From: Spirochaetota bacterium | Lineage (GTDB): Bacteria > Spirochaetota > UBA4802 > UBA5550 | Direction of reading: 5' to 3' | DNA length: 64,000 nt | Assembly: GCA_003246895.1 (NCBI GenBank) | Contig: QKCL01000009.1 | Location: 1 to 64,000 of the forward strand | Part shown: in pieces, positions 5,370 to 11,248 of the stretch | How the letters are laid out: every line of letters starts with the position of its first letter | Numbering within the stretch: position 1 is the stretch's first letter | Notes under the pieces: generated by a model | The model's input: only the letters and a program-made list of their open reading frames with translations | Database searches by the model: none | Told to the model about the DNA's origin: nothing | Translations under genes and position numbers: made by a program

Positions 5370-5566
5370 TTTTCCGAATCCATGAATCCTATTTAGTCAT
5401 TTATTGACTATATGTAAAAATGTTACATGGTAATATAATGTCAAGAGAATTACGCTAACAATATTGTCAAAGGCCCATTTAGTTCAATTAAGGAAAAAAG
5501 ACATGTACCACGATCGTAATTATCACATAGATAACAGAAAGTATTACCACTCGCACACTGCGTTCA

Positions 5567-5724
5567 CTGGAGACACGGAGAAAAAAAGGAGAGATGGTGA
5601 ATTACTGATAAATAGGTGCAAACAAAATCATTACAAGATCAATCTTTTTATTCCAACTTTTAAAATATTATTTTTACAATCTCCTTATTTCTCCGTGCTC
5701 TCCAAATCTCCGTGGTGCATCCTT
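5567..5724. repeat. Empty repeat module A (ends in inverted repeats shared with module B)
   Basis: The left arm at 5567-5595 reads CTGGAGACACGGAG, an A-tract, then GGAGAGAT. The right arm at 5681-5724 contains CTCCTTATTTCTCCGTG followed by CTCTCC. These inner parts are imperfect inverted repeats of one another. The last 37 bases, 5688-5724, recur exactly at 6276-6312. Between the arms are about 85 AT-rich bases with no credible gene; the apparent frame through 5464-5808 is made of repeat sequence and is not called. Together with module B this fills the gene-free stretch 5370-5828. Confidence 0.7.
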
Positions 5725-5767
5725 CATACTTTCTCAAAAAAAATTCACCTCCCGCTCACTTCGATCG

Positions 5768-6312
5768 CTGGAGACACAGAAAAAAAAGGAGAGATTATTG
5801 ATTATTAAAAAAGTTACAAACCGCAATATCACAGAACCAATCTTTTTATTCCATTTTTTAAAATAGAGGTATTGAAATTTATAAGCAAGCCTACTTTTTT
5901 ACCGCTTAATTTCATATAGGTCATGAGTTGTGCTTTATGTATATTCTTGATATTCTCGACACTTTTAATTTCAATTATAACTTTGTTCTCAATAAGAAAG
6001 TCAATTCTGAAATTACAATCTATACTCATCCCCTGATAAACAACAGGTAAAAATACTTCTCTTTTAAAATTCAAACCCGCATTTTTAAATTCATATGATA
6101 AGCATTCACAGTATGCTCTTTCAAGCAATCCCGGCCCAAGCTCTTTATGCACCGAAATTGCTGTATTAATAATTTTTTCCGTTATATTTTCATAAAGCAT
6201 ATTCAGCTCCGAATTATTTCACATAAACTAACAGACGATTATTAATACGTAACCATAAACAGAAATTTAAATTTTTTTCTCCGTGCTCTCCAAATCTCCG
6301 TGGTGCATCCTT
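5768..6312. repeat. Repeat module B enclosing the GxxExxY gene
   Basis: The left arm at 5768-5795 (CTGGAGACACAGA, A-tract, GGAGAGAT) is nearly the same as the left arm of module A. The right arm at 6276-6312 is identical over 37 bases to the right arm of module A. The complete GxxExxY-type gene at 5829-6200 lies between them with little spare DNA, so the unit has the look of a loaded cassette. Sequences of the kind CTCCGTGxCTCC near such genes recur in unrelated bacteria, as I recall. Mobility is inferred only from the arrangement. Confidence 0.65.
5829..6200 (-). CDS. GxxExxY family protein (PD-(D/E)XK nuclease-like fold)
   Basis: A 123-aa protein with the name-giving motif GPGLLERAY near residue 22-30 and a downstream block RIDFLIENKVIIEIKSV, which has the D-(x)n-ExK arrangement of PD-(D/E)XK nucleases. 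The following KAQLMTYMKLSGKKVGLLINF is also conserved in this family. The family is widespread, strongly patchy in occurrence and of unknown cellular role; nuclease chemistry is suggested by the fold only. The gene is monocistronic on the minus strand and enclosed by the inverted-repeat arms of module B. This supports acquisition as a unit. Confidence 0.85.
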   Translation of the reverse strand: MLYENITEKIINTAISVHKELGPGLLERAYCECLSYEFKNAGLNFKREVFLPVVYQGMSIDCNFRIDFLIENKVIIEIKSVENIKNIHKAQLMTYMKLSGKKVGLLINFNTSILKNGIKRLVL

Positions 6313-6690: not shown

Positions 6691-7350
6691 CTATCCCTTA
6701 TACAGCGAATTATCCCTGCCGTTGAGAACATCTTCAACGATACGGCCGATCATTTCTTCCGTAATGGAAAATTCATTCGCATACTTTATATTGTCAAGCC
6801 ATTGAAGAGGAAACTCAAGCAGCCTGTCTGCAAAAAAAACAGTGTTAAGAGGAGACTTTTTATCTGCAATTGCACAGATGTCTTTCCAGTTGAAATTTTC
6901 ATTCACACAGACAGCGCAGAGATCAAAAACATCCTTCTCCTCATCCCTGTCCATAACGGCATTTACCTTGTTAGTGAGAATGTTAATTACATTATCCACC
7001 CTGCACTCGTTAATGACCCGGCTTTTACCCTCACGAAAAACCCTGTCATTTATAAAATCGACCTGCAGTTTATCATCAACCATAAGTCTATGAAAATCCT
7101 TTCCCTGAATACCCCTTCTGACTGAAAAGCTGCCACTCTCCAGCCTGCTTATTATCTCCCTGATGTTCTCACCGAAGAGAGGGTCATTTTCGGCAAAGAA
7201 GTCAAGATCATCCGAATATCTGAGTCCATAATAAAACCTGTGGAGAGCTGTACCGCCTGTGAGATAGAAACTGTTGCCGCAGGCAAAAACAGTACGGAGC
7301 ACAGAGTCCTGAAGGTCATATAAAATTTTATAGTCAGTTACTTTGTCCAC
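6691..7350 (-). CDS. AbiEii/AbiGii-type nucleotidyltransferase toxin
   Basis: A 219-aa protein with the nucleotidyltransferase-like core LTGGTALHRFYYGLRYSDDLDFF, which contains the Gly-Gly and the two catalytic aspartates of DLDFF as in AbiEii proteins. Further conserved elements are KVNAVMDRDEEKDVFDLCAV, matching the usual KxxAxxxRxxxKDxxDL region. AbiEii-type enzymes are toxins of type IV-like toxin-antitoxin or abortive-infection pairs and transfer nucleotides to target RNA. The gene overlaps the upstream 111-aa gene by 13 bases, as expected for a co-translated pair. It lies in repeat-rich accessory DNA. Whether it acts in phage defence is inferred. Confidence 0.8.
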   Translation of the reverse strand: MDKVTDYKILYDLQDSVLRTVFACGNSFYLTGGTALHRFYYGLRYSDDLDFFAENDPLFGENIREIISRLESGSFSVRRGIQGKDFHRLMVDDKLQVDFINDRVFREGKSRVINECRVDNVINILTNKVNAVMDRDEEKDVFDLCAVCVNENFNWKDICAIADKKSPLNTVFFADRLLEFPLQWLDNIKYANEFSITEEMIGRIVEDVLNGRDNSLYKG

Positions 7351-7673
7351 TGTAGACCTTTTACAGCATTCTTTTCATTAAAAATTATATTTCTCATGGC
7401 AAGGGTCATCATCCCGACATATTTCTCATTAAATTCAGTGCCGAAAGAATCAAAGAGTCCTTTCAGATCATTCTCGTCAAAGACCTTAAGACTCATATAC
7501 GGGTCAGTTGAATTATGCATAATTTTTGAGAAGAGTTTCTTTTTTTCACGCCATGAACCTTTTCCGGCTATGTCAATAACAGAATCAGCAGTGAAATTAT
7601 AATCCCAGTAACAGTCTTTAACTATTTTTTCAGCAATCTCATAGAGTTCTTTTTTATCATGCACGGCATTCAC
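7338..7673 (-). CDS. Partner protein of the AbiEii-like toxin (unknown family)
   Basis: A 111-aa protein immediately upstream of and overlapping the AbiEii-like gene, starting at GTG. It has no transmembrane segment. Visible blocks are WDYNFTADSVIDIA, REKKKLFSKIMHNST and a C-terminal KGLQW. It does not show the winged-helix pattern of classical AbiEi antitoxins, but small proteins ending in a KxLxW-like tail are common directly upstream of AbiEii-type nucleotidyltransferases. The overlap and shared strand support a role as the cognate antitoxin or regulator. I do not recognise a named domain. Confidence 0.65.
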   Translation of the reverse strand: MNAVHDKKELYEIAEKIVKDCYWDYNFTADSVIDIAGKGSWREKKKLFSKIMHNSTDPYMSLKVFDENDLKGLFDSFGTEFNEKYVGMMTLAMRNIIFNEKNAVKGLQWTK

Positions 7674-10634: not shown

Positions 10635-10913
10635 TCAGGAATAATGACCCCTGCAAGACGATATATCAACTTCTTTTAATGATTCATATATTGTGTATAT
10701 CAAACGGTCTTTCTGATTAACTCTTCTTGAATAAACTTCCTTTTCAAAATATTTCAGTCTTTCTGGCTTGCCTGTTCCGGATCTTGGATTATTCATGATT
10801 TCACGCATGAAATCGAATACTTTTACATATGAATTCCTGTCATTCTTTCTCAGCCAATCAAGATCATCATCTGCATTTTCGAGAATATTAATTTTGTAAG
10901 TCACTGAAAACAT
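10635..10913 (-). CDS. yoeB: Txe/YoeB family mRNA interferase toxin
   Basis: A small RelE-fold ribosome-dependent endoribonuclease of about 92 aa. The family pattern is clear: an N-terminal amphipathic helix (ENADDDLDWLRKND), GTGKPERLKY in place of the usual GxGKPExLK, SRRVNQKDRLIYTI, and the C-terminal CRGHY whose His-Tyr pair is catalytic in YoeB. The ATG at 10913 was chosen because YoeB proteins start here; an in-frame GTG at 10922 is the alternative. The start lies inside the 3' end of the antitoxin gene, the usual coupled arrangement. Expected activity is cleavage of mRNA at the ribosomal A site, held in check by the YefM partner. Confidence 0.88.
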   Translation of the reverse strand: MFSVTYKINILENADDDLDWLRKNDRNSYVKVFDFMREIMNNPRSGTGKPERLKYFEKEVYSRRVNQKDRLIYTIYESLKEVDISSCRGHYS

Positions 10914-11160
10914 CCTCAACACTTAACGATTTAGGCCGTTTCCCCTGACTTCTGTCCTCGTGACCATCAAGCAGCGCCTTCAGAGACTTCTTATCCATCA
11001 GAAGATTCAAAGTCTCTTTCATTGATTCATAATCCTCCTGAGGAAGCAGGATCACCGATCCATTATCAGTGGCAATATTTATCTCCTCATGGCTATCAAG
11101 GGAATAATCAACCATAGATTTTAGTTCACTCATTGCTTTGCTTATAGTTACCGTTTTCAT
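10888..11160 (-). CDS. yefM: Phd/YefM family antitoxin
   Basis: DNA-binding antitoxin of the YoeB-like toxin. The protein from ATG 11160 is 90 aa and begins MKTVTISKAMSELKSMVDYS, followed by NGSVILLPQEDYESMKET. This is the classical YefM fold: N-terminal beta/alpha DNA-binding region, then the VILLPxEDYxSLxETLxLL dimer helix. The start was chosen because GGAGA lies eight bases upstream and the family begins at this Met. The C-terminal third (RSQGKRPKSLSVEDVF) would be the disordered toxin-neutralising tail. The pair normally represses its own promoter through a palindrome upstream of the gene. Confidence 0.85.
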   Translation of the reverse strand: MKTVTISKAMSELKSMVDYSLDSHEEINIATDNGSVILLPQEDYESMKETLNLLMDKKSLKALLDGHEDRSQGKRPKSLSVEDVFSDLQN

Positions 11161-11248
11161 GCTTTTTCTCCATGGAAAAACAAGTATCCTTAAAACAGTT
11201 TTTGTAAACAAAAAAAAGTTCCATAAACAAGGAGAAAATCATACCTTT

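Follow-up and report, generated by a model that had tools for sequence, protein, structure and literature searches.

Among described systems, those closest to the locus analyzed here are the RAYTs, for which 4 properties have been reported: the gene lies between inverted repeats, the repeats form composite arrays, gene and repeats co-evolve, and the gene correlates with repeat abundance (PMC2817692). A literature search on GxxExxY/PDDEXK_3 proteins and on the repeat sequences treated below retrieved no description of a function or of a flanking repeat. Here, we analyzed 2 adjacent modules, A and B, located in a stretch of 64,000 nucleotides from a Spirochaetota bacterium (contig QKCL01000009.1; hereafter, the window), together with GxxExxY loci from other genomes. 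The results point to GxxExxY modules being a little-noticed family of miniature mobile elements, that is, a mobile pair of repeat and enzyme.

The left arms of modules A and B match at 78–80% (repeat families D3 and D4), and their right arms include a segment of 37 identical bases within a direct repeat of 40 nt and 98% identity (5685–5724 and 6273–6312; Table 1). In each module the arms are inverted relative to one another (inverted repeats I1 and I3), in agreement with an earlier note on this DNA. The left ends given there need correction: an outer ACC(AC), common to 2 more solo copies in the same genome (L006 and L007), places the real ends approximately 20 bases further left, the outer end of module B reading ACCTCC rather than ACCAC. 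Across the window, the end pattern was detected at 2 places, in modules A and B, versus 0.00 expected from shuffling, and the hairpin fold of module A has a z score of −4.7, with none of 200 shuffled sequences folding as stably. The earlier note took the interior of module A for about 85 AT-rich bases, which is incomplete, and the 2 modules for a gene with its empty-site counterpart, a reading that has to be abandoned. Positions 5546–5667 of module A align with 5747–5865 of module B, reaching into the 3′ coding end of the nuclease gene; the remnant of this end (Table 1), which in module B reads SILKNGIKRLVL-stop, retains 76% DNA identity over 58 nt (repeat family D1). Module A therefore derives from a loaded module by internal deletion and is no empty site, as its spacer still holds the nuclease 3′ coding end.

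Table 1. Anatomy of modules A and B, with positions counted from the first base of the window.
Feature	Position	Strand	Remarks
Module A	5546–5716		Solo module, internal-deletion derivative of a loaded module
Module A left arm	5546–5593	+	ACCACTCGC...CTGGAGACACGGAGAAAAAAAGGAGAG; outer ACCAC(C/T)CGC shared with L006 and L007 (solo copies)
GxxExxY 3′ coding-end remnant in module A	5631–5669	−	NILKVGIKRLIL-stop (ILKVGIKRLIL-stop)
Module A right arm	5680–5716	+	5688–5724, 37-base segment identical to module B
Module B	5747–6304		Loaded module, ~0.56 kb
Module B left arm	5747–5793	+	Repeat families D3 and D4
GxxExxY/PDDEXK_3 nuclease gene in module B	5829–6200	−	123 aa, profile matches
Module B right arm	6272–6304	+	6276–6312, 37-base segment identical to module A

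Judged by eye, 2 further gene pairs of the window deserve mention: one adjoining the modules (6691–7673, minus strand) resembles an AbiEii-type nucleotidyltransferase with its partner, and one at 10635–11211 (minus strand) resembles a YoeB/YefM-type toxin–antitoxin pair.

Profile searches confirmed that module B encloses a full GxxExxY gene, its product being a member of both TIGR04256 (E = 4e-44; 149.8 bits versus a curated cut-off of 35) and PF13366 (E = 3e-43; 147.2 versus 22 bits). The protein carries the GxxExxY motif as well as the PD-(D/E)XK catalytic residues, and the 10 residues that are invariant across 36 relatives include G24, E27, Y30, D67, E77, K79, Q91, and Y95. Comparison of its predicted structure (pLDDT 94.9) with solved folds yielded a single match below E = 0.001; the nearest folds were Cas4 SSO0001 (4ic1; E = 7e-4) and lambda exonuclease (E = 3e-3), and the model also resembles recombination exonucleases and, at E = 0.1, the homing nuclease I-Bth0305I. 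A sequence search of solved structures produced no convincing match to the nuclease, only a weak one at E = 0.09. Given the invariant catalytic residues and the predicted fold, the protein is very likely an active nuclease of the Cas4/lambda-exonuclease type. Conserved cysteines, the criterion for the Cas4 iron–sulfur site, are absent from the invariant columns of the 36 proteins, and no CRISPR genes were seen near the nuclease gene.

The cassette proposed in the earlier note found support beyond the window: arms of the same kind flank GxxExxY genes in many genomes, and solo modules are present elsewhere in the same genome. Most loci were collected by genome searches, since a search with the single protein yielded 3 loci; they were sampled best score first, largely from draft metagenome assemblies, with arm boundaries set by eye in places. 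Within 200 bp of 109 genes, paired CACRGA units occur at 87 per 41 kb, versus 9 per 211 kb at distances of 700–2500 bp, and a reversed-motif control near the same genes gave 4. The units are oriented convergently toward the gene (F30/R5 on the left and R34/F18 on the right). A test independent of any motif returned an inverted-repeat score of at least 12 for 44 of 87 true flank pairs, 20 of 522 mismatched pairs, and 2 of 78 distant flanks, so that about half of the loci have no arm pair passing it. Periodicity of 7–11 bp was detected in 39 of 174 near flanks versus 3 of 156 far flanks, with 9, 10, and 8 bp being the commonest periods.

In many loci devoid of CACRGA, the arms consist of different phased units (CGCAGAG, CGAAGG, CACAAAG, CAGGATT, or CGCAGAT, for example). 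The host genome itself contains 2 further GxxExxY loci, both within arrays of the same style composed of different letters (CACAGATA and CACGGATT). The statistics stem mainly from one phylum, identified as Spirochaetota by inference from a G202 protein identical to one of Treponema saccharophilum, and cases from other phyla were judged by eye: Bacteroides finegoldii has CACCACAGAGGACGCAGAGGACACGGAGG and its inverse directly after radA, and Bernardetia, Gemmatirosa, Flavobacterium, Sphingomonas, Persicobacter, and Fodinibius each have their own arm versions. The same anatomy is present in the complete records of B. finegoldii and Bernardetia. In a plasmid record of Sphingomonas parapaucimobilis (L269), a conserved fatty-acid synthesis operon contains a GxxExxY gene, together with a CGCGAAGG arm, between fabD and fabG and 2 bp ahead of the latter. 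An array of CACGGAT-type modules in genome G000 (C86:53682–57540) stops at a contig break within a third GxxExxY gene, and assembly breaks at GxxExxY genes were also encountered in G003 and G017.

The letters of the arms follow the phylogeny of the nuclease. The protein tree divides the 27 loci first labeled by their CACRGA arms, without exception, into the 18 of G type and the 9 of T or A type. Blind automatic labeling of 100 proteins, in which GAT was distinguished from GAG/AAG within the phased units, gave 37 G to 1 T in clade I and 4 G to 19 T in clade II, the split between the 2 clades being moderately supported (68–87). Arm letters changed 4 times on the protein tree, versus a mean of 17 and a minimum of 12 after shuffling, and a single genome can house both arm types (L001 and L002 in G000). 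Arms and gene travel together, and this linked inheritance contributes to the co-variation, which by itself is therefore no proof of binding. At such protein distances, unconstrained noncoding DNA should lose all similarity, and we infer from the sequences that some function maintains the arms, the simplest candidate being their recognition by the adjoining nuclease.

Gene-less modules and the nuclease gene are also linked at the level of whole genomes. Of 296 genomes of one phylum, 43 contain a strict three-unit pattern and 63 encode the nuclease; pattern and gene are both present in 28 genomes, the repeat only in 15, the gene only in 35, and neither in 218 (p = 9e-12, odds ratio 11.6, uncorrected for phylogeny). 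Most genomes have no modules, and backward-pattern controls were near zero. Genomes with any match have between 1 and 63, and 14 of the 15 genomes with at least 5 encode the gene. The association is pronounced in genomes of at least 3 Mb (odds ratio 21) and absent in those below 3 Mb, where just 1 of 12 genomes with repeats has the gene. Among the sampled loci, convergent modules with spacers of 300–1200 bp all contain GxxExxY and no other gene, a count biased by the retrieval of long modules via the gene; the remaining convergent modules have spacers mainly shorter than 200 bp. Module copies in G003 share the arms and approximately 10 bp beyond them and differ in their spacers.

A RAYT was considered as the partner of the repeats and rejected: in module-rich genomes, phased units were found within 1.5 kb of 0 of 20 Y1_Tnp loci, Y1_Tnp is weakly associated with the repeats when GxxExxY is taken into account, and the effect of GxxExxY on repeat presence persists in both Y1 classes. 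Some CACGGAG modules (L175, L201, and L203 in G003; L226 in G132) reside within units with IS-like ends (GGGACTGTCTAAAAAG... or GGGGTTGTGTCAAA...), as if picked up by, or nested in, MITEs.

Modules are gained and lost between sister species, and sites with and without them were both found among relatives, in a comparison of the kind suggested in the earlier note. We compared 8 module sites of genome G270 with 2 congeners (G102 and G296; 92–97% identity). Some modules are common to the congeners, 2 sites are devoid of a module in G102, and at 2 sites the G102 module is built of other units (CGCCGAG). At one of the latter 2 sites, the G296 module is chimeric: its left arm is CGCCGAG and its right arm CACGGAG, where G270 has CACGGAG throughout and G102 has CGCCGAG throughout. 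G270 encodes a nuclease with CACGGAG arms and has 63 pattern matches, and G102 has 3 matches and a different nuclease. Similarly, a Leptospira-like site is loaded in G132 and empty on one contig of G221 (C502); on another (C249), the same site holds arms, a truncated GxxExxY gene, and a 5-kb insert. This insert (L327, 181–5840), apparently cargo inserted in the module, follows the truncated gene start between the arms and, by appearance, encodes an SNF2-type helicase and an AAA ATPase.

One subfamily, in genome G028, transposes with target duplication. It comprises at least 5 copies of a unit of about 500 bp, which are 91–97% identical and have sharp ends, CTGACTTCTACCCACA and TGTGGGTAGATGTCAG, forming 16-bp terminal repeats. 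Flanking 9-mers agree at 9/9, 8/9, 8/9 (shifted by one base), and 7/9 positions for 4 copies, whereas copy L037 has none; a 260-bp internal-deletion derivative of the element (L275, C15:75666–75925) is flanked by 9-mers agreeing at 8/9. These duplications are the only direct evidence of movement and look like transposition. At 40 solo CACGGAG/CACGGAT modules, target duplications of consistent length or position were not found.

Taken as a whole, the account that we favor has about an even chance of being correct. Module B would be an autonomous-type unit of approximately 0.56 kb, consisting of one Cas4/RecB-type PD-(D/E)XK nuclease gene and 2 inverted arms, each made of short units repeating every 8–10 bases, and module A its gene-less derivative after internal deletion. 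The nuclease would recognize its own arms, reading their phased units as inverted sites that form a pair, and cut the DNA at the arms or in a hairpin formed by them. Cutting would then cause loaded and gene-less modules to spread in intergenic DNA, to be deleted, or to be replaced in place, an overall action like that of a REP/RAYT pair but performed by an unrelated enzyme. Two steps of this account are presumptive: first, that the arms are bound and cut by the nuclease between them, and second, that this enzyme, and not a transposase acting in trans, moves the modules.

The second step is challenged by the G028 copies, whose 16-bp CTGACTTCTACCCACA ends and 9-bp duplications resemble those of IS50/Tn5 (end CTGACTCTTATACACA). 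This resemblance makes a transposase in trans a real possibility and suggests one of the IS4 type. The nuclease would then be a passenger, serving repair or defense, for example, on MITE-like or transporter-IS modules moved by an ordinary DDE transposase, and the IS-like-ended units around some G003 and G132 modules fit the same picture. However, a scan of G028 for the 16-bp ends returned GxxExxY copies, one derivative, and unpaired matches, with GxxExxY as the sole gene between such ends and none of the 7 DDE_Tnp_1 matches located there; moreover, ends vary among subfamilies while phased arms are general, and the tracking of the nuclease tree by arm letters across phyla would be hard to explain for a passenger. 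We consider the passenger role rather unlikely. Less probable still is a homing-like process, in which gene-less modules are cut by the nuclease and then receive a copy of the gene, or of the arms, by recombination between arms, so that the gene spreads from module to module and the arm letters become homogenized. The identical arms of loaded and gene-less modules, the chimeric G296 module, and the fold resemblance to I-Bth0305I and recombination exonucleases are all compatible with it, but module A is a deletion product instead of an uninvaded site, gene-less modules far outnumber genes, and discrete insertions with target duplication exist.

The position of G270 modules a few bases past stop codons and the strong fold of module A would also suit host elements, such as bidirectional terminators or 3′ hairpins after stop codons, where the nuclease gene landed or which it uses for regulation. 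A terminator, however, needs no phased direct repeats, arms lie on both sides of the nuclease gene itself and vary with its clade, and most genomes have no modules, while sister species differ in those that they carry, which renders this explanation improbable. Finally, the prevalence of draft metagenome assemblies might raise the suspicion of chance similarity or assembly artifact; with 0.00 matches expected by shuffling, near-zero backward-pattern controls in the 296 genomes, and the same anatomy in the complete B. finegoldii and Bernardetia records, this can be given hardly any credence.

Under the account in which the nuclease acts on its own arms, a widespread family of proteins of no known function would gain a concrete and testable target, and the common CACGGAG- and CACGGAT-type intergenic repeats, which are gene-associated in the surveyed spirochaete genomes, would be explained. 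If the nuclease moves the modules, these would represent a new class and a second answer to the REP/RAYT problem, unrelated to the first, and the nuclease would be a very small natural DNA-targeting enzyme with a specificity readable from its flanking repeats. A bolder generalization, which we put forward tentatively and regard as doubtful, is that GxxExxY nucleases themselves mobilize a widespread class of DNA elements, which with a gene of ~120 codons plus arms would be the smallest known to be autonomous; phased repeats would be recognized by a stand-alone nuclease of the Cas4/lambda-exonuclease type, which would create and homogenize dispersed gene-less modules.

Several known systems share part of this anatomy. 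With the Cas4/lambda-exonuclease/RecB superfamily, the protein shares the predicted fold, the D..ExK..QxxxY residues, and weak Cas4 profile matches, but it is half the size and stands alone, the window containing neither a CRISPR nor a recombinase partner. Homing endonuclease cassettes, too, are short units that exist with and without a nuclease gene inside, whereas GxxExxY modules are not in an intron or intein, their gene-less copies occur as dispersed repeats, and module A arose by deletion. Like insertion sequences and MITEs, one subfamily (G028) has a unit of about 500 bp, terminal inverted repeats, target duplications, and internal-deletion derivatives, and module A and the 260-bp G028 derivative, both gene-less and with the ends of a gene-bearing relative, are MITE-like; unlike insertion sequences, the window module and the G028 copies have no DDE, HUH, or recombinase gene, their sole gene being the nuclease. 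The closest parallel is with REP/REPIN sequences and their RAYT (TnpA-REP) (PMC2817692, PMC3116915, PMC8266576): in both, a single gene lies between inverted repeats, tandem and solo gene-less copies occur in intergenic DNA, gene and repeats co-vary, and gene presence correlates with repeat abundance. The differences are that GxxExxY is a PD-(D/E)XK nuclease and RAYT an HUH Y1 enzyme, that the arms consist of phased 8–10-bp units and REPs are compact GTAG-tagged palindromes, and that GxxExxY modules are present in fewer copies (1–63 strict pattern matches per positive genome). Since all 4 statements made of RAYTs hold for an unrelated enzyme, the GxxExxY module works like a REPtron without being one.
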